The notes under the pieces are model-generated. The model did no database searches, had not been told where the DNA came from, and worked only from the letters and a program-made list of their open reading frames with translations. Both the position numbers and the translations under genes were made by a program. 64,000 nt of DNA from Geminicoccus roseus DSM 18922 (GTDB lineage Bacteria; Pseudomonadota; Alphaproteobacteria; Geminicoccales; Geminicoccaceae): contig NZ_ATYL01000003.1 in assembly GCF_000427665.1 (NCBI RefSeq), positions 1 through 64,000 of the forward strand. Direction: 5' to 3'. Shown piece after piece: positions 1-50,501 of this stretch; the stretch's first letter is position 1; each line of letters begins with the position of its first letter.

Positions 1-426
1 CCCGGCGCGGATCCGGTGGATGTTCCTAGGGGCGCCGGACAGGGCACGCGGCCAAGCCTCACCGGGATTTGCCGGACGATCCATTCCGCGCCACCGGGCG
101 GCGGCCGGCTCTCGATGCCAGGCAAACGATCCCTGGCATGGTCGCCCGACCGCGAAGCCTGCGGCGGCGGATGCCGATCTCCTGGATGGCGGGCAGCGGT
201 GCGGCCGGCTTGCGTGGAGGGCCATGGCAGCGCCACTGGCGCAGAGGGCCGGGATCTGGATGCAAATTGCGAGATGCTGCTGATCTGGCCGCATCCCGCC
301 AGCATGACGATCCGCACCCGGTCGATGGGCGGGATAGAGCATCGGCCGACCTGATCGAATCGTCGGGGATCCCCCTGAGGCGCTGGTTCTGATTCACGAT
401 GTCCGCCGGGATGGAGGCCGGCTTGG
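1..426. other. No recognisable gene; IS-flanking debris
   Basis: No open frame in this stretch resembles a known protein, and no long frame has a convincing ribosome binding site. It abuts a decayed IS630-type transposase and may hold the left end of that element or other transposon debris. No terminal inverted repeat could be identified with confidence. Confidence 0.5.
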
Positions 427-42564: not shown

Positions 42565-44004
42565 TCAGTCGTTCATACGGGAACAGCTCTGATCAGCCTC
42601 GCAGGCATGGGTCAGGTCCTTGCCGAGGCAGGGTTCCGGCCCGACGACGAAGCCTGGAGACCTGTCCAGGACCAGGCGGGGCGGCTCCGCCACGGCCGGC
42701 AGGCCCTCGGTCCAGCGATTGAACCCGGCCTCGTTCAGGATGAAGGGTCGCAGGCAGATGTCGACCCTGCCGGTGGCCGAGGAGTCGCTGACCACCAGCA
42801 CGTCATCGGGATAGCCCCGGCCGGCGACCAGCAGACGGGCGTCGCCCTCGACCTGGTTGGAACGGAACAGCACGCTGCGATTGCCAACGCCGATCTGGGT
42901 CAGCCGCGAATCCGGCTCGCACCCACCGAAGGTCCGCCCGACCAGGTAGAGCTGCCGGGCGCAGTTCTTCGAGTTGCGGTCATTGTTGGCGACGCGCAGC
43001 GGCTCGCTGATCCCGGCAAAGCGATTGCCGGTGACGAAGATCCGCTCGACGTTGCGCGCGAACACGCCGACCGTCCCATCGTCCAGGCCATCGAAGCTGT
43101 TGTCGGCGACCACGATGTTGGCGATGGTCCGCTCGGTCACGACATCGGCATGGGCGGTGTCCGGCTCCTGGCCGCCCTCGATGCAGACCAGCCCGCACAG
43201 CTCGAACCTGTTCTTCTCGATCACGACGTTGGCGGTCTTCTCCTTCAGCGAGAGGGAGTGGTTGAAGTAGCCCTCGAACAGATTGCCCCGGATGACCAGG
43301 GTGTCGCCTCCATGGACGCGCAGCCCGTAATCCATGCGCACGGCGCCGATTCCGCCCGCTTCCCCCTCCACGATCATGTTCTGGAAGACGTTGTTCTCCA
43401 CCAGCACCTGCCGGATGTCTGCGCCGGGCTGGCCGTTCAGCAGGAGGCCAGTATTGCTCTGCTGGAAGAACCGGTTCTGGACGAAGGCCAGATCGTGACT
43501 GCCCCTCACCGTGAGGCCGTTGCCGCTCTGGTCCGGTTCGACCTCGAAATCGATGCCCTGGACCCGCAGGAAGGCCGAACCGGTGACCTTGAGCTCGGTG
43601 TTCCTGAACACGGCCCGGTCGGTCGCGGCGAGCTTCAGGCCGGGTCCAGTGACCACCGGGTGCAGGGCCTCGATGCGAATAGGTGCTGCGGAGGTTCCCT
43701 TGGCTACGACCTTCGCGCTGGGGTAGCTGCCTGGCAGGAGCAGCACGCGGTCGCCTGGCTGCAGCGACGACAGGAGGGTGTTCAGGGCAGCCGGCGCCTC
43801 AAGGCTGGCGCCGCTCCCCGTGCCGGCCGGGCTGGCGAAGAGCGTGCGCTCAGCTGGGCTGCTCCAGTCGACCGGGACATACTCGATCGGCGCCGGTGCC
43901 AGCACCTGATCCCCGATGGACTCCAGGGGGGAGGTCGCACATCCGGCGACCGCAAAGGCCGCCAGCAACATCGTCGCCGCGAACAGTCTTCTGGTCGACC
44001 TCAT
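42565..44004 (-). CDS. Beta-helix lipoprotein, paralogue of the neighbouring secreted protein
   Basis: A 479-residue protein with a lipoprotein signal (LLAAFAVAGCATS, lipobox Cys near 22). It shares long blocks with the protein at 41098: YFNH-S-KE, CIEGGQEPDT, VGVFARNVERIFVTGN and RVANNDRNSKNCARQL. The C-terminus has extra cysteines. Residues after the lipobox do not include an Asp at +2, so outer-membrane sorting is likely. Its ATG overlaps the pabAB stop as ATGA. One gene for a lipid-anchored form and one for a free form suggests a division of labour on a surface polysaccharide. Confidence 0.78.
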   Translation of the reverse strand: MRSTRRLFAATMLLAAFAVAGCATSPLESIGDQVLAPAPIEYVPVDWSSPAERTLFASPAGTGSGASLEAPAALNTLLSSLQPGDRVLLLPGSYPSAKVVAKGTSAAPIRIEALHPVVTGPGLKLAATDRAVFRNTELKVTGSAFLRVQGIDFEVEPDQSGNGLTVRGSHDLAFVQNRFFQQSNTGLLLNGQPGADIRQVLVENNVFQNMIVEGEAGGIGAVRMDYGLRVHGGDTLVIRGNLFEGYFNHSLSLKEKTANVVIEKNRFELCGLVCIEGGQEPDTAHADVVTERTIANIVVADNSFDGLDDGTVGVFARNVERIFVTGNRFAGISEPLRVANNDRNSKNCARQLYLVGRTFGGCEPDSRLTQIGVGNRSVLFRSNQVEGDARLLVAGRGYPDDVLVVSDSSATGRVDICLRPFILNEAGFNRWTEGLPAVAEPPRLVLDRSPGFVVGPEPCLGKDLTHACEADQSCSRMND

Positions 44005-46073
44005 GCGGGAACCTCCATGGCAGCGGGCCGGGCGAGGGTGGCGTCACCTTCCAGGCGACCACCGAACGCCTCGACCAGCGCCTGGCACTTCAGGCGGACC
44101 TCGGCGAGCTCGGCGAGCGGGTCGGACAGGTCGACGATGGCGCCGCCGGCGCCGATGCTGATCCGGCCCGGCTCGACCACCGCGGTGCGGATCACGATCG
44201 ACAGGTCCACCCGGCCGTCTGAACCCAGGTAGCCGATCGCGCCAGAGTAGATCCCGCGCGGCCGCCCCTCCAGCTCGTCCAGGATCCTCATGGTGCGGAG
44301 CTTGGGCGCCCCGGTCATCGAGCCTCCTGGAAAGGCCGCGCGCACGCAGGCGATCGGCGAAGTGCCGCCCCGGAGCCGGCCGCAGATCGTCGAGACCATC
44401 TGGTGGACCGTGGCGTAGCGCTCAATCCGGAACAGGTCCGGGACATGCACGCTGCCGGTCGCGCAGACCTTCCCCAGGTCGTTGCGCAGGAGATCGACGA
44501 TCATCAGATGCTCGGAGCGGTCCTTGACGCTGGAGCGCAGCTTCTCGGCCATGGCCCGGTCCTGCCGTTCATCGGCCCCGCGCGCGATCGTGCCCTTGAT
44601 CGGGCATGCCTGGACGCTGCCCTCGGCATCGATGCTCAGGAAGCGCTCGGGCGACGAGGACAGGATGGCGAGGTCGCCGAAGCGGAGGAAAGCGGCAAAC
44701 GGGGCGGGGTTGATCCGGCGCAGGCGGCGATAGGCGTCGAGCGGATCGACCTCCACCTGCGCGGCGTACTCGTTGGTCAGGCAGATCTCGTAGCTCTCGC
44801 CCTGGCGGATCGCCTGTTGGGCAGCGGCGATCCGCTCCAGGTAGGCGTCGTCCGCCAGATGGGGCCGGAAGATGGGTCGGCCGCAGGGAGGGGGAGGTTC
44901 CGGCAGGGAAGGGGCCTCGGTGATGCGCTCGAGAGTGACGTCGAACCAGGCGTCGGCGCGTTCTTGCTGGCCCGGATGATCGAGGGCCAGGAGCACGACG
45001 CGCCCGGTCGCGTGGTCGAACGCGACGATCCGGTCGGCGAACAGGAGTTGCGCGTCCGGCAGCGACGAGTGGTGGGCAGCGGCGCCACCGGCATCGGCCT
45101 TCAACTCGTAGCCGAGATAGCCAACCCAGCCGGGAAGGAAAGGCACATCGAGCCCTGCCGGGCGCTCGATGCGCCGCTCGTCCAGCCACCGCTCGAGATC
45201 GTCGAAGACGGAGGGGTGGGTCTCGGCTTGCGGGATCCCTCGATCGGCCACCCGATAGGTGATCTGCCGGGCATGCGGCCCCGAGCCGTCGCCCATGAAC
45301 GACCAGCGGGCACCGGCGGCATCCAGCCGGGCGCTGTCCAACCAGAACGCCGTTCCCGACCGTCCGTAGAGGGCGACGAAGCTCCGCTCGGGGTCGGCGG
45401 CGCAGGGGCCGGCCCGCGTGAAGAGCTGCAGTTCTCCTCCGGCCGGCCTGGCCGTAGCTGGGCATGGGCGTGGCGGCGGGATGCGCCGGGGCGCGGAGGG
45501 AGAGACGACCAGATCCAGGAAGTTGCGGACCAGGGCAGCGCCATGCTCCGTATCGATCGACTCGGGGTGGAACTGGACGCCGTGGAGCGGACGATGGCGA
45601 TGGCGCAGGGCCATGATGATGCCGTCGTCCGACCACGCGACCGGCTCGAAGTCGGGCCCGGGCTCCGTCACCAGCAGGGAATGGTAGCGGATCGCCCGAA
45701 AATCCTGCGGCAGGCCGTGGAACAGGCCGGTGCCCAGGTGACGGATCCGGCTTGGCCGGCCGTGCATGACGGTGCGGGCATAGCCGATCCTGCCGCCGCC
45801 ATGGGCGGCCAGTCCCTGATGGCCGAGGCAGACGCCGAGGATCGGGCCCTGATAGGAGCGGATCAGGGCGGTGCAGATGCCGAAATCCGCCGGACGATCG
45901 GGCCGGCCCGGGCCGGGCGAGAGGATCACCGCATCCGGGCCGAACGCCGCGACCTGATCCAGATCGACCTGATCGTTCTTCACGACCCACGGCTCCGCCC
46001 CGCTCACCACGGCCACGAGCTGGGCGAGATTGAAGGTGAAGCTGTCGTAGTTGTCGACCAGCAGGAGCCGCAT
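44001..46073 (-). CDS. pabAB: Aminodeoxychorismate synthase, fused PabA-PabB
   Basis: A 690-residue fusion. Residues 1-190 are a class I glutamine amidotransferase (NYDSFTFNL, nucleophile Cys82 in GVCLGHQ, HPES at 169-172). Residues from about 250 on are the chorismate-binding synthase: LTNEYAAQVEVDPL, SSSPERFLS, PIKGT, HLMIVDLLRNDLG, GGSMTGAPK and YSGAIGYLG. The Lys in PIKGT is the PabB-type residue, where anthranilate synthase has Ala, so this feeds p-aminobenzoate and folate. It also fits folB being 4 kb away. Its stop overlaps the start of a beta-helix lipoprotein gene. Confidence 0.9.
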   Translation of the reverse strand: MRLLLVDNYDSFTFNLAQLVAVVSGAEPWVVKNDQVDLDQVAAFGPDAVILSPGPGRPDRPADFGICTALIRSYQGPILGVCLGHQGLAAHGGGRIGYARTVMHGRPSRIRHLGTGLFHGLPQDFRAIRYHSLLVTEPGPDFEPVAWSDDGIIMALRHRHRPLHGVQFHPESIDTEHGAALVRNFLDLVVSPSAPRRIPPPRPCPATARPAGGELQLFTRAGPCAADPERSFVALYGRSGTAFWLDSARLDAAGARWSFMGDGSGPHARQITYRVADRGIPQAETHPSVFDDLERWLDERRIERPAGLDVPFLPGWVGYLGYELKADAGGAAAHHSSLPDAQLLFADRIVAFDHATGRVVLLALDHPGQQERADAWFDVTLERITEAPSLPEPPPPCGRPIFRPHLADDAYLERIAAAQQAIRQGESYEICLTNEYAAQVEVDPLDAYRRLRRINPAPFAAFLRFGDLAILSSSPERFLSIDAEGSVQACPIKGTIARGADERQDRAMAEKLRSSVKDRSEHLMIVDLLRNDLGKVCATGSVHVPDLFRIERYATVHQMVSTICGRLRGGTSPIACVRAAFPGGSMTGAPKLRTMRILDELEGRPRGIYSGAIGYLGSDGRVDLSIVIRTAVVEPGRISIGAGGAIVDLSDPLAELAEVRLKCQALVEAFGGRLEGDATLARPAAMEVPA

Positions 46074-46269
46074 CGTTACCATCCGCCATCCGGAGCTTGC
46101 GGGCGCAAGGGGTGGCGCGCCGGCGACGATAGCACAAGGACCGTTGCTGGCCATTCGCTCCGGTTCGCCGCAGGCCGACCGGGATTGCGGCGGCAGGGAA
46201 CATTTGCCCGCGCTGAAGCTGGCGACCCGGCGCGCATGCGGGACATCGCGCGACGTCCCGCATCCAGGC

Positions 46270-47287: not shown

Positions 47288-47533
47288 CTATTGCACGTCG
47301 GCGTTGGGCGGGGCGATCTGGAAGTGGCGGCACCGCTCCACATGGGCCACGCCCTTGACCCGCCGGAGCCTGTTCAGCGTGCGCGCGTCATCGATCGAGC
47401 CGGAGACCGTGCCGACCATCGCCATCTGGTTCTCGACATGCAGGCCGGCCTCGACCATGTCCCGCAGCACGGCTGGAAAATCCTTCAAGCGGGCCTCGTC
47501 GACCGAGACCACGACGCTGAGCTTGCCGGTCAT
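47288..47533 (-). CDS. Small I9/propeptide-like protein
   Basis: An 81-residue protein without a signal peptide. The pattern KLSVVVSVDEARLKDFPAVL, VENQMAMVGTVSGSIDD and VKGVAHVERCRHFQIAPP fits the ferredoxin-like fold of subtilisin propeptides and I9 inhibitors, whose last strand enters the protease active site. The subtilase gene lies 218 bases upstream on the same strand. It may be a free inhibitor or folding chaperone for that protease. The link is inferred from fold and proximity. Confidence 0.65.
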   Translation of the reverse strand: MTGKLSVVVSVDEARLKDFPAVLRDMVEAGLHVENQMAMVGTVSGSIDDARTLNRLRRVKGVAHVERCRHFQIAPPNADVQ

Positions 47534-47751
47534 CTGACGCCTCGTGGAGTATCCATCCATATATGGTCGGAGCACATTGTTTGTGAACGTGCCTGGATTC
47601 AGAACGCGAGGCAAGGCGGACCCTAATCCACATCGACGCCGGACCAACAATCTCAATGAGAACATAACGTGAACATTCTGCTCGACTGGTCGTCGCCGCC
47701 GCCATTGCTTGGCCAAAGGCGGCCCTCTCGGGCGATATCATCGGCGACGCT

Positions 47752-49119
47752 TCAGAATGGCGCCTGGACCAGCCCAGCCCCGACATCCCGCCCCAACCGG
47801 TCAAGCCGGTGGGCGGACTGCACGAGGCGCGCCCACAGTGCACTCCCTCGGGCATCCGGGTCCGATTCGGCAATCAGCGCCGCGATCCCGGCGACATGCG
47901 GGGTCGCCATGCTGGTACCGTTGATCGTGTTGTAGAGTGTTCCAGGCCAGGCCGAGTAGACCGCCACCCCTGGCGCCGCGATGTCGACCTGGCCGCCCTG
48001 CGGATTCAGCCCGGCGCAGGAGAACCAGGCCACCCGAAGCTGCGGGTCCAGGGCCGCCACCGCCATGATCGAGGGGCAGTTCGCCGGATGCCCGACCGGG
48101 CAGAGCTGGTCCGGCCGCCGGCTGTCGTTCCCCGCTGCCGCCACGATCAGGGTGCCAGCCCGCAGGGCCCGCCGGCCGACCTGCTCGAAGATCACGGAGA
48201 AGGGCGTCCCGACCTCCACCGCGGCGCCCAGCGACATCGACACGATCGGGCAGCCGGCAGCGACCGCCCAGTCGATCCCGGCCAGGATGCCGCCGTCCGA
48301 CCCGCTGCCCCGGTCGCTCAGGACCTTGCCGGCATGGATCAGCGCGTTGCCGGCCACGCCGTAGCGCGGCAGGCGGTGCGGGAGCAGCGGGCCGCAGGCG
48401 GTCCCGATGCAATGGGTGCCGTGGCCGTTGCCATCCTGGACCTCCTCCCCGGTCACGAAGCTGCGGGCTTCGATCGCCCGGCCCTCGAAGTCCGGATGGG
48501 TGAGGTCCATCCCGGTGTCCAGGACCGCCACCCGGATCCCGTCGCCGGTCCAGCGCGTGGTGGTCGCCCGCACCGCCTGCAGGCCCCAAGTGGCCTCACT
48601 CTCGCTCTCGGTGCGGGGGAGGGTAGCCGCGGGCCGGTCGTCGCCGATCAGCCGGTCGAGCACGGAGTTCACGCCGTCCCGGTAGCCACGGAGGTACTCG
48701 GTCGACCAGCCGGCGCCCGTCGACGCGTTCGGCAGGCTCGGGACCGGCGACGGAATGCCGACCTTGCTGTCGGGAAAGGCATGGACGACGCGCTCCGGCT
48801 CGATCGCCAGGACGCCGCTGCCGGCGGCGACCGAGTTGAGCAGATGCAGGTCGCCTGGCGGGGTCGCGACCACCGCGACCTGCAGCGCGTCGAGCACCAG
48901 CCCGTCCGCCTCGGCGAAGGCCCCGACCGACGATCCGTCACGATAGTCGCTGGAATGGGCGACCCGCAGTCCGGCGACGCTCTTCAGCGCCGAGAGCCCA
49001 GTCTTGATGTCGTCCTCGGGAAGCAGGACCAGATAGCGGCCGGTATGGCCGGGCTGGGGCGGTTGGGTTGCCGAGGCCGTTTCCGCACGCACGGCCCGGC
49101 GGGCTCCTGACTTGGGCAA
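47752..49119 (-). CDS. S8 (subtilisin-like) serine peptidase without a signal peptide
   Basis: A 455-residue subtilase. Catalytic residues are Asp201 (VAVLDTGMD), His233 (GNGHGTHCIGT) and Ser403 (NGTSMATPHVAG), with Asn331 (VAAAGND) as oxyanion residue. The first 110 residues (GRYLVLLPEDDIKTGLSALK) may be a propeptide-like domain. No signal peptide is seen, which is unusual for the family. The TTG at 49119 has AAGGA seven bases upstream and lies 11 bases past the metallo-hydrolase stop, so the two are probably co-transcribed. A small I9-like gene follows. Confidence 0.87.
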   Translation of the reverse strand: MPKSGARRAVRAETASATQPPQPGHTGRYLVLLPEDDIKTGLSALKSVAGLRVAHSSDYRDGSSVGAFAEADGLVLDALQVAVVATPPGDLHLLNSVAAGSGVLAIEPERVVHAFPDSKVGIPSPVPSLPNASTGAGWSTEYLRGYRDGVNSVLDRLIGDDRPAATLPRTESESEATWGLQAVRATTTRWTGDGIRVAVLDTGMDLTHPDFEGRAIEARSFVTGEEVQDGNGHGTHCIGTACGPLLPHRLPRYGVAGNALIHAGKVLSDRGSGSDGGILAGIDWAVAAGCPIVSMSLGAAVEVGTPFSVIFEQVGRRALRAGTLIVAAAGNDSRRPDQLCPVGHPANCPSIMAVAALDPQLRVAWFSCAGLNPQGGQVDIAAPGVAVYSAWPGTLYNTINGTSMATPHVAGIAALIAESDPDARGSALWARLVQSAHRLDRLGRDVGAGLVQAPF

Positions 49120-49130
49120 GCTGGTTTCCT

Positions 49131-50003
49131 TCAGATGACCGCCTGGACGTTGCGCCGGTGGACTGCCTCGTAGGCGGGGAAGTAGTGGATCGCCCCGGAA
49201 TCGAAGGCGGGGCGGCAGAAGCTGGGCAGGTCCGCCTCCGCAAGGGCCGGTTCCTCCCGCACCCGCAGGAGCCTGGCGACATAGGAGCGGGTAGCGTCGA
49301 TCAACTCCGGTCCATAGCCGCCGGCCTCGATCGTCTCCAAAGCGCCATGATTGGGAAGGATGCGCCGGACGTTCCATCGCGCCATCTGCTCCAGGCCGCG
49401 CAGATGCACGGCCAAGCGCTCCGGCTCCACCACATAGGTGACCGGGTCCTCCAGCGTGTCGCCGGCCAGCATCAGCCCATGCTCCGGCAGGAGAAGGACA
49501 GTGCCGTCCAGGCTGTGCACGTCGGCGTGACGCAGTTCGACCTGGAACTGCCCGACCTGGAGTTCCAGCCTGTCCTCGTAGGTGCGGGTCGGCATGACCA
49601 GCGGCCGGATCGGCGGATCGCCAGCCTCCAGTTCCTGGCGGTGAGCATCGAGCGCTTCGGCGGTCAGCCGGTGCGCGAGGATCTCGCAGTCCTGGAACAC
49701 CTCGTTGCCGGCGACGTGATCGACATGCCAGTGGCTGAGCACCACCCGTATCCGGCGCACGCCGGCCTCGACCAAAGTGCGCCGGACGACCCGGGCATGC
49801 TGCAGGGAGATATGGGTGTCGTAGACCAGGGCGTCCTCGCCATCGACCAGGGCGTAGGTGCAGACACCCAGGGCGAAGGCGCCGTCGTCCAGCCAGTTGG
49901 GCTTGTCCGAGTGCAGCCGCATGCCTTCGATGCGGCCGTCGTAGAATGCGACCAGGCCCGGAAAGGGCCGGAATACCCGCATGGTCGAACCGAGCTGCTG
50001 CAC
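49131..50003 (-). CDS. Metallo-beta-lactamase-fold hydrolase
   Basis: A 290-residue MBL-fold protein with SHWHVDHVAG (His91, His93, Asp95, His96), a further His in ELRHADVHSLDG, Asp in LMLAGDTLEDP and His in LPNHGALETIE. The set is complete, so it should bind two metals. The GTG start is chosen for the AGGAGG ten bases upstream; an ATG at 49982 is an alternative. Likely a cytoplasmic hydrolase of unknown substrate, co-transcribed with the subtilase. Confidence 0.85.
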   Translation of the reverse strand: MQQLGSTMRVFRPFPGLVAFYDGRIEGMRLHSDKPNWLDDGAFALGVCTYALVDGEDALVYDTHISLQHARVVRRTLVEAGVRRIRVVLSHWHVDHVAGNEVFQDCEILAHRLTAEALDAHRQELEAGDPPIRPLVMPTRTYEDRLELQVGQFQVELRHADVHSLDGTVLLLPEHGLMLAGDTLEDPVTYVVEPERLAVHLRGLEQMARWNVRRILPNHGALETIEAGGYGPELIDATRSYVARLLRVREEPALAEADLPSFCRPAFDSGAIHYFPAYEAVHRRNVQAVI

Positions 50004-50108: not shown

Positions 50109-50501
50109 TTGCGGGATCGGCAGATCATCCGGCTGAAGGGCCTCGTGCTCGACCTCGCGATCGGGGTGTTCGACGACGAGCACGGCCGCACCCAGCCGGT
50201 CGAGATCGAGGTGGAAGCATGGCGCGATGCCGGGGCCTTCACCAGCGGCCGCTACCAGGACTGCCTGGACTATCACCGGCTGTTCACGCATCTGACCGAG
50301 GTCTGGCCGACCCGGCCGCACCAGGCGCTCCTGGAAAGCTGGGCCGAAGACCTGATCGTTTTCGTGCTCGAGGATCCGCAGGTCGAGGGCTGCCGGGTCC
50401 GGCTGGCCAAGCTGGCGATCTATGGCGGGCGGGCGGTGCCGGAGGTCGAGATAATCCGTCATCGAGCGGGGCTGCGGCCGGCCGCTGATCGGCGCGCCTG
50501 A
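50109..50501 (+). CDS. folB: Dihydroneopterin aldolase
   Basis: A 130-residue FolB-type enzyme of folate synthesis, releasing glycolaldehyde from dihydroneopterin. The blocks IIRLKGLVLDLAIGVFDDEH, CLDYHRLFTHLTEVW and LLESWAEDLIVFVLEDPQV fit the family, with Glu in LLESWAE as the pterin anchor. The TTG start has AAGGA nine bases upstream. It is divergent from the MBL gene, and its folate role matches the pabAB gene nearby, although the two are not co-transcribed. Confidence 0.85.
   Translation: MRDRQIIRLKGLVLDLAIGVFDDEHGRTQPVEIEVEAWRDAGAFTSGRYQDCLDYHRLFTHLTEVWPTRPHQALLESWAEDLIVFVLEDPQVEGCRVRLAKLAIYGGRAVPEVEIIRHRAGLRPAADRRA

Follow-up and report, generated by a model that had tools for sequence, protein, structure and literature searches.

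The region described here lies within a 64,000-nucleotide stretch of DNA (hereafter the window) from Geminicoccus roseus DSM 18922 (contig NZ_ATYL01000003.1, positions 1 to 64,000). It contains, on the minus strand, a pair of genes encoding an apparently leaderless subtilisin-like protease (subtilase), P0001, and an 81-residue protein, P0003, that looks like a free subtilisin prodomain. In the order in which they are read, the features of this region are:

49131-50003, minus strand: metallo-beta-lactamase (MBL)-fold hydrolase P0002 (290 aa, GTG start; PF00753, 1e-10), outside the conserved unit
47752-49119, minus strand: subtilase P0001, probably leaderless (455 aa, 46.9 kDa, TTG start; PF00082)
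47534-47751, minus strand: intergenic gap between the subtilase and the small gene (218 bases)
47288-47533, minus strand: small protein P0003 (81 aa, ATG start), a stand-alone prodomain-like protein of I9 type and predicted subtilase inhibitor

P0002 is thus followed by 11 bases, P0001, 218 bases and P0003. The coordinates were re-derived, and the positions, strand and 11-base MBL-subtilase spacing given in the initial annotation of this DNA were found to be correct. The ATG of P0003 is preceded by GAGG (identified by eye), and a consensus scan of the 218-base gap detected no sigma-70-like promoter or terminator.

The association of the two genes was examined in relatives that were gathered using the subtilase only. 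The loci opened consisted of nine plasmid loci, the best 27 genome loci (L012-L038) and one locus from a viral contig (L092). The genome loci were taken from the best 80 of more than 568 relatives, and the plasmid loci come from nine of 391 records (H2-H8, H11 and H12; H9 and H10 were Vibrio records with scores equal to that of H8, and H13-H15 were left out). The line between close and distant relatives (E-values of 9e-73 or better for L012-L038 and of 2e-55 or worse from L039 onward) was drawn after this gap had been seen. A small gene was present directly downstream of the subtilase, and on the same strand, in 36 of the 37 closest relatives opened. A small related open reading frame (ORF) followed the subtilase in all nine plasmid loci, whereas in the other 28 loci the partner was detected by profile in 26, accepted by eye in L035 (profile E-value 8.3) and lacking in L021. 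The controls were 39 more distant loci (32 of the 53 loci L039-L091 and seven of the 79 viral loci L093-L171), one of which, L061, is cut at a contig end; in none of the 38 with room downstream did the small-protein profile give a match at E < 1. The pairing therefore exceeds chance (36/37 vs. 0/38). According to the record titles, members of this unit are found in eight phyla, viz. Pseudomonadota, Actinomycetota, Bacillota, Bacteroidota, Cyanobacteriota, Chloroflexota, Acidobacteriota, and Deinococcota. The two genes are separated by -4 to 147 bases in the 36 related pairs measured (start codons were chosen by us) and overlap by 4 bases in nine of them; the 218-base gap in the window is longer than all of these. 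The small gene is annotated as a "hypothetical protein" in all eight annotated plasmid records opened.

The unit is rare per genome and strictly paired where it is found. Whole genomes were searched with the small-protein profile, by a procedure that scores only some of the first-look candidates, and the counts are thus lower bounds. Among 397 genomes from the window's own phylum, including its own, at least five others contained strong matches, with a subtilase just upstream in five of five. Among 296 genomes from the phylum of G483, the genome of the Streptomyces locus, strong matches were seen in G483 and one other, again with a subtilase just upstream in both. Two weak matches in the window's phylum correspond to a prodomain region belonging to a different subtilase (L178) and, by eye, to a CBS-domain protein (L179). 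In the 37 pairs, distances among the subtilases are correlated with those among the small proteins (Mantel r = 0.665, with none of 2000 permutations as high), a co-divergence that common inheritance would explain as well.

The larger protein of this pair is organized as follows:

P0001, residues ~26-117: prodomain-like N-terminal region; then a linker; residues ~176-455: S8 catalytic domain with Asp201/His233/Ser403

To judge from its sequence, P0001 is a member of the peptidase family S8 with an intact Asp/His/Ser triad, as the initial annotation had stated. PF00082, the sole Pfam domain found, matches residues 192-442 (E-value 1.8e-44), and Asp201, His233, Asn331, and Ser403 sit in columns that are invariant across a ten-sequence alignment. 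The protease had also been described as lacking a signal peptide, with the reservation that a different start could supply one. The 25 residues ahead of the conserved TGRYLV (LPKSGARRAVRAETASATQPPQPGH) are polar and devoid of any hydrophobic run, and any in-frame start farther upstream would fall within the MBL gene; because of these two observations a hidden signal peptide is unlikely. The N-terminal hydropathy values gave no clear split between family members (mostly 0.5-1.9, with L036 at 2.06) and five secreted controls (1.99-2.34), and this statement therefore rests upon the stretch before TGRYLV, read directly. When the N-terminal regions of 25 family subtilases were aligned with the small proteins using hhalign, a probability of 77 (P 1.9e-5, 67 columns) was obtained, and their similarity to 24 Pfam-I9 sequences was weak (probability 9.5), these single-pair values being rough. 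At L024 5300-6154 and at L008 3646-4115, the part encoding the subtilase N-terminus is distributed over different reading frames, which could reflect either sequencing error or true decay. In a PADLOC scan, P0001 matched a generic subtilase model (2.4e-27) and, through its subtilase part, IetS (1.5e-9), and no matches were found for P0002 and P0003.

Searches of Pfam and NCBIfam with P0003 alone gave no match, and its relationship to subtilase prodomains is indicated by its family, predicted fold and gene context. Within the family, PF05922 (inhibitor family I9) matches five of 37 members at E-values up to 1 (best 0.0021), and Pfam NapD matches two of 37 (best 0.0097). In the search of the G483 phylum, the profile of the P0003 family also yielded 35 weak matches; 28 of these had a locus, and in 23 of the 28 the ORF continues, on the C-terminal side of the match, with an S8 domain. 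An hhalign comparison of the small-protein family with 24 Pfam-I9 sequences gave a probability of 81 (P 1.2e-5, 34 columns; again a rough single-pair value). In a profile search of Protein Data Bank (PDB) sequences, propeptides of Tk-subtilisin were aligned across most of their length (E-values 0.025-0.06). The AlphaFold model of P0003 has a mean predicted local distance difference test (pLDDT) score of 93.6 and the order beta-alpha-beta-beta-alpha-beta. A Foldseek search with this model found NapD as the best match and subtilisin propeptides next, and in VIA superpositions ranks 2-18 were all subtilase propeptides or proforms (Z 9.5-8.0), mostly variants of Tk-subtilisin. As structure alone is not decisive, the assignment to the prodomain type is based upon the profile matches to subtilase prodomains together with the gene context. 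P0003 thus looks like a free subtilisin prodomain and is described here as I9-type, without being filed as a member of Pfam I9. The label "I9-like" in the initial annotation was a guess, and although P0003 by itself matches no Pfam or NCBIfam family, the family profile, fold and context support it.

The position that the small protein may take on the enzyme was modeled in a relative, L024, where both genes share one reading frame and are separated by a stop and another 38 codons, by folding the catalytic domain and the small protein as a read-through chain. The AlphaFold model had a mean pLDDT of 88.5 and a predicted template modeling (pTM) score of 0.87 over 395 residues, with a disordered linker. 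By our reckoning, the pTM would have a ceiling of about 0.72 if the small domain were unplaced (about 285 residues precede the disordered stretch), and because the observed value is above this, the small domain is predicted with confidence to be set against the catalytic domain. The catalytic part of the model matches subtilisins (1c3l, E-value 9.9e-26), and it includes a strand at residues 384-386, equivalent to residues 70-72 of P0003, which is absent from the model of the free protein. A structure prediction of the complex had been suggested in the initial annotation; as carried out for this relative it supports a confident placement, from which contact with the active site is an inferred step. 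The end of P0003 that would be concerned is:

P0003, C-terminal tail: H70-F-Q-I-A74-P75-P76-N-A-D-V-Q81

When P0003 is superposed on cleaved propeptide chains, residue 74 is the last aligned residue and is range-paired with the chain end (4..74 to 7..77 of 1spb_P, 307..377 of 1scj_B and 5..69 of 2z2y_B). The inhibitor POIA1 (1v5i_B) superposes at Z 7.2 (3..74 to 1..76), and with 3cnq_P the superposition runs past this residue (4..76 to 9..79). The end residue of a cleaved propeptide chain is the P1 residue of the propeptide, and Ala74 would then occupy P1 and Pro75 P1'. Subtilisins cut poorly where proline is at P1'. A tail of the form hydrophobic-[APG]-Pro is present in 22 of the 37 small proteins; 17 of the 37 end in Gln, and those of L009, L011, and L018 stop near the P1 position. 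These tails may represent two versions of one inhibitor, one product-like and the other passing through the active site with a proline at P1'.

In its layout the pair resembles PopC/PopD of Myxococcus xanthus (Q1DFT5 and MXAN_0207), which is the closest known system. PopC (MEROPS S08.143) is a 50.8-kDa subtilase without a signal peptide, whose N-terminal part has no recognized domains. PopD binds PopC and inhibits its secretion, a block that ends with the degradation of PopD upon starvation. PopC was enriched in the periplasm and leaves the cell with an intact N-terminus, and it is still produced and secreted when popD is mutated (PMC6434023). PopD, an inhibitor of PopC, is encoded in the popCD operon, where the popD start is 1437 bases after that of popC (sites 1210+227 and 1031+406), i.e., by size approximately at the popC stop (PMC4320627), and PopC has been given its own subgroup among the subtilisins (PMC9549277). 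P0001 is likewise a subtilase of about 50 kDa, apparently leaderless and with an unrecognized N-terminal part, and its small partner gene is also directly downstream in 36 of 37 relatives (after 218 bases in the window). The likeness is one of layout and general description; PopC, for its part, is exported and cuts CsgA. The view in the initial annotation that the arrangement is unusual thus holds for its rarity per genome, but the arrangement itself is widespread and is similar to that of PopC/PopD. No other bacterial stand-alone protease/prodomain pair was described in the literature searched, in which most subscription papers were not covered.

Free proteins with a prodomain fold are otherwise exemplified by POIA1 and by SUB1-ProM of malaria parasites, the latter, a potent inhibitor of SUB1, being a stand-alone prodomain-like protein whose gene is a neighbor of subtilase genes (PMC6993865). 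Both of these are eukaryotic, whereas P0003 is bacterial and is encoded in a two-gene unit, with a family tail that often carries proline beyond P1. Intracellular subtilisins (ISP) possess a pro-peptide of their own, in which a LIPY/F motif is inhibitory (PMC6220982). They are leaderless bacterial subtilases, as P0001 appears to be, but neither LIPY nor LIPF is present in the P0001 sequence, which sets it apart from this group. NapD, a Tat proofreading chaperone and the top structural match, shares the ferredoxin-like fold with P0003; the gene context and the profile matches to subtilase prodomains, however, point to the prodomain type.

Based upon these results, P0001 is probably a leaderless subtilase that is made together with its own free-prodomain inhibitor, whose removal would be needed for activity. 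In such a scheme P0003, a prodomain encoded by its own gene, would dock on the catalytic domain as the propeptides of subtilisins do. Its tail would lie along the substrate cleft with Ala74 at P1, where Pro75 at P1' would hinder cleavage, and P0001 would remain inactive until P0003 is removed, e.g., through a regulated proteolysis such as that reported for the PopD protein of M. xanthus. The suggestion in the initial annotation of a leaderless protease with its own inhibitor is strengthened by the pairing, the fold and the confident placement of a separate I9-type partner, with the inhibition itself being deduced from these. What is described here is a real, conserved protease-partner pair that is explained as a subtilase with a free prodomain inhibitor, in a layout already known from PopC/PopD.

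A number of observations weigh against this interpretation. The curated cut-off of PF05922 is missed by P0003, and Tk-subtilisin is preceded by three designed proteins in the profile search of PDB sequences. In the superpositions of P0003, NapD leads (Z 9.7, root-mean-square deviation 5.8), tying in Z with the propeptides, and unrelated ferredoxin-like folds start at Z 7.8. The L024 model is that of a relative, tethered by intergenic sequence and lacking the subtilase's N-terminal part; its pLDDT drops to about 55 over the final five residues of the tail, and contacts with the active site are not readable from it. The identification of Ala74 as P1 depends on the range ends of cleaved chains, as uncut proforms end otherwise, and the tail motif is absent from 15 of the 37 small proteins. 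The N-terminal region of P0001 may itself occupy the same site as P0003, one relative (L021) has the subtilase without a partner, and the 218-base gap leaves co-transcription of the two genes in the window not assured. Lastly, the cytoplasmic location named in the initial annotation is not assured for P0001, as PopC, likewise leaderless, was enriched in the periplasm (PMC6434023); our confidence was lowered slightly for this reason.

The subtilase tree suggests that the unit has been spread horizontally. Different phyla are mixed in it, with Acidobacteriota, Halomonadaceae and Geodermatophilus forming one supported group. The six rows labeled as alphaproteobacterial (the window row was so labeled by us) need six changes, of which the well-supported branches force only one. 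For all labels 18 changes are needed, as against a mean of 20.1 for shuffled labels, and 15 of the 34 inner branches lack resolution. The locus L022, which is titled Rhodococcus, was labeled as Actino after its title; it was nevertheless placed in Cyanobacteriota, and a mislabeled or mixed bin is possible. A broader proposal, which we regard as plausible though rather less than an even prospect, is that this is a horizontally spreading unit of at least eight phyla. A leaderless subtilase would be locked by a freed prodomain with a cut-resistant proline tail, and regulated destruction of the inhibitor would release a ready-made protease. It would then constitute a general post-translational switch, of which PopC/PopD is one known case. 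If the reading of the pair as protease and inhibitor is right, a family of small "hypothetical protein" genes gains a role, along with a mechanism that can be tested. The switch known for PopC/PopD from a single bacterium may then be widespread, and a possible form of PopD is predicted. Protease engineers would have an interest, too, in a natural prodomain inhibitor able to withstand its protease.

Other explanations of the pair have been considered. P0003 could act mainly as a folding chaperone in trans, as prodomains do for secreted subtilisins, and inhibit only in passing. The fold and placement evidence fits a chaperone and an inhibitor alike, and prodomains commonly do both (PMC6993865). 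This is nevertheless unlikely in our estimate: a prodomain-like region is already present at the N-terminus of the subtilase, as judged by its similarity to the small proteins (less so to Pfam I9, see above), and in the look-alike PopC/PopD system the protease is still made and secreted when popD is mutated (PMC6434023). Slightly less likely still is a mobile addiction or abortive-infection module, with the protease as toxin and the small protein as antitoxin. The strict pairing and the gene overlap accord with such a module, as do the patchy spread, the mixing of phyla in the subtilase tree, the plasmid copies (one in Vibrio with dndB-like and DNA methyltransferase genes nearby, another in Methylobacterium with a TIR-domain gene about 3.5 kb upstream) and the lack of P0001 or P0003 matches in the draft congener G001. 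However, M. xanthus with a mutated popD could be grown for study (PMC6434023), and the neighbors of the unit give a different picture. In 92 of 106 ORFs from 27 loci (called with a simple ORF caller; L021 and ten odd-sized ORFs were left out), no Pfam family was found in more than three neighbors, and these were mostly metabolic and transport families. Five PADLOC families were detected, none in more than two neighbors (mad2 twice, the others once); three of the five (mad2, mad3, and mad8) are MADS components, and the mad3 model is unspecific, as it matched every one of 26 genomes and of 14 controls. The "defence-like" character suggested in the initial annotation is thus left unsupported.

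That the MBL hydrolase, the subtilase and the small protein make up one functional module, as the initial annotation had implied by naming an MBL-fold partner, is very improbable. P0002 and P0001 are separated by 11 bases, which suggests a common transcript in the window genome, and HxHxDH motifs of the MBL type occur in ORFs of four of 37 loci (L003, L017, L030, and L038), though at least 1 kb from the unit. Against this, blastp searches (E-values up to 1e-4) found no homolog of P0002 among the ORFs of 44 family loci, and no match to P0001 or P0003 lies within 1.5 kb of the MBL ortholog in G015; P0002 was rejected as a module member. Similarly, an MBL ortholog in G001 (81% over 151 residues) is located beside folB in a genome where no matches to P0001 or P0003 were found, its contig ending inside the MBL gene. 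The synteny of all three genes, which had been proposed as a check, therefore holds for the subtilase and the small gene and not for P0002.

A phage origin was also considered and rejected, as 38 phage records match the catalytic domain only and none covers 80% of P0001. The only close locus from a viral contig (L092, from IMG/VR) has bacterial-looking neighbors (a ferric reductase, a phosphoesterase and TauE) and may not be viral.

The clearest defense-like setting among the loci seen is that of the Vibrio plasmid pSEA2 (L009 1777-7384; L252), where the unit lies between the dndB-like gene and a DNA cytosine methyltransferase. In L003 (835-2588; a Methylobacterium nodulans plasmid), TIR-domain and MBL-fold genes are found about 2.5-4 kb upstream of the unit. 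Other protease genes occur close to the unit on plasmids from Rhizobium (an S8/S53 peptidase, L004 1-1473) and Streptomyces (a serine protease, L005 6658-8646). In the window, the region is flanked on one side by an aminodeoxychorismate synthase-like gene (44001-46154, minus strand; a fused glutamine amidotransferase/chorismate-binding enzyme) and on the other by a FolB-like gene (50109-50501, plus strand). The gene next downstream of P0003 (46270-47208, minus strand) belongs to a putative cyclase family (PF04199), and its product has, by eye, a signal-peptide-like start.

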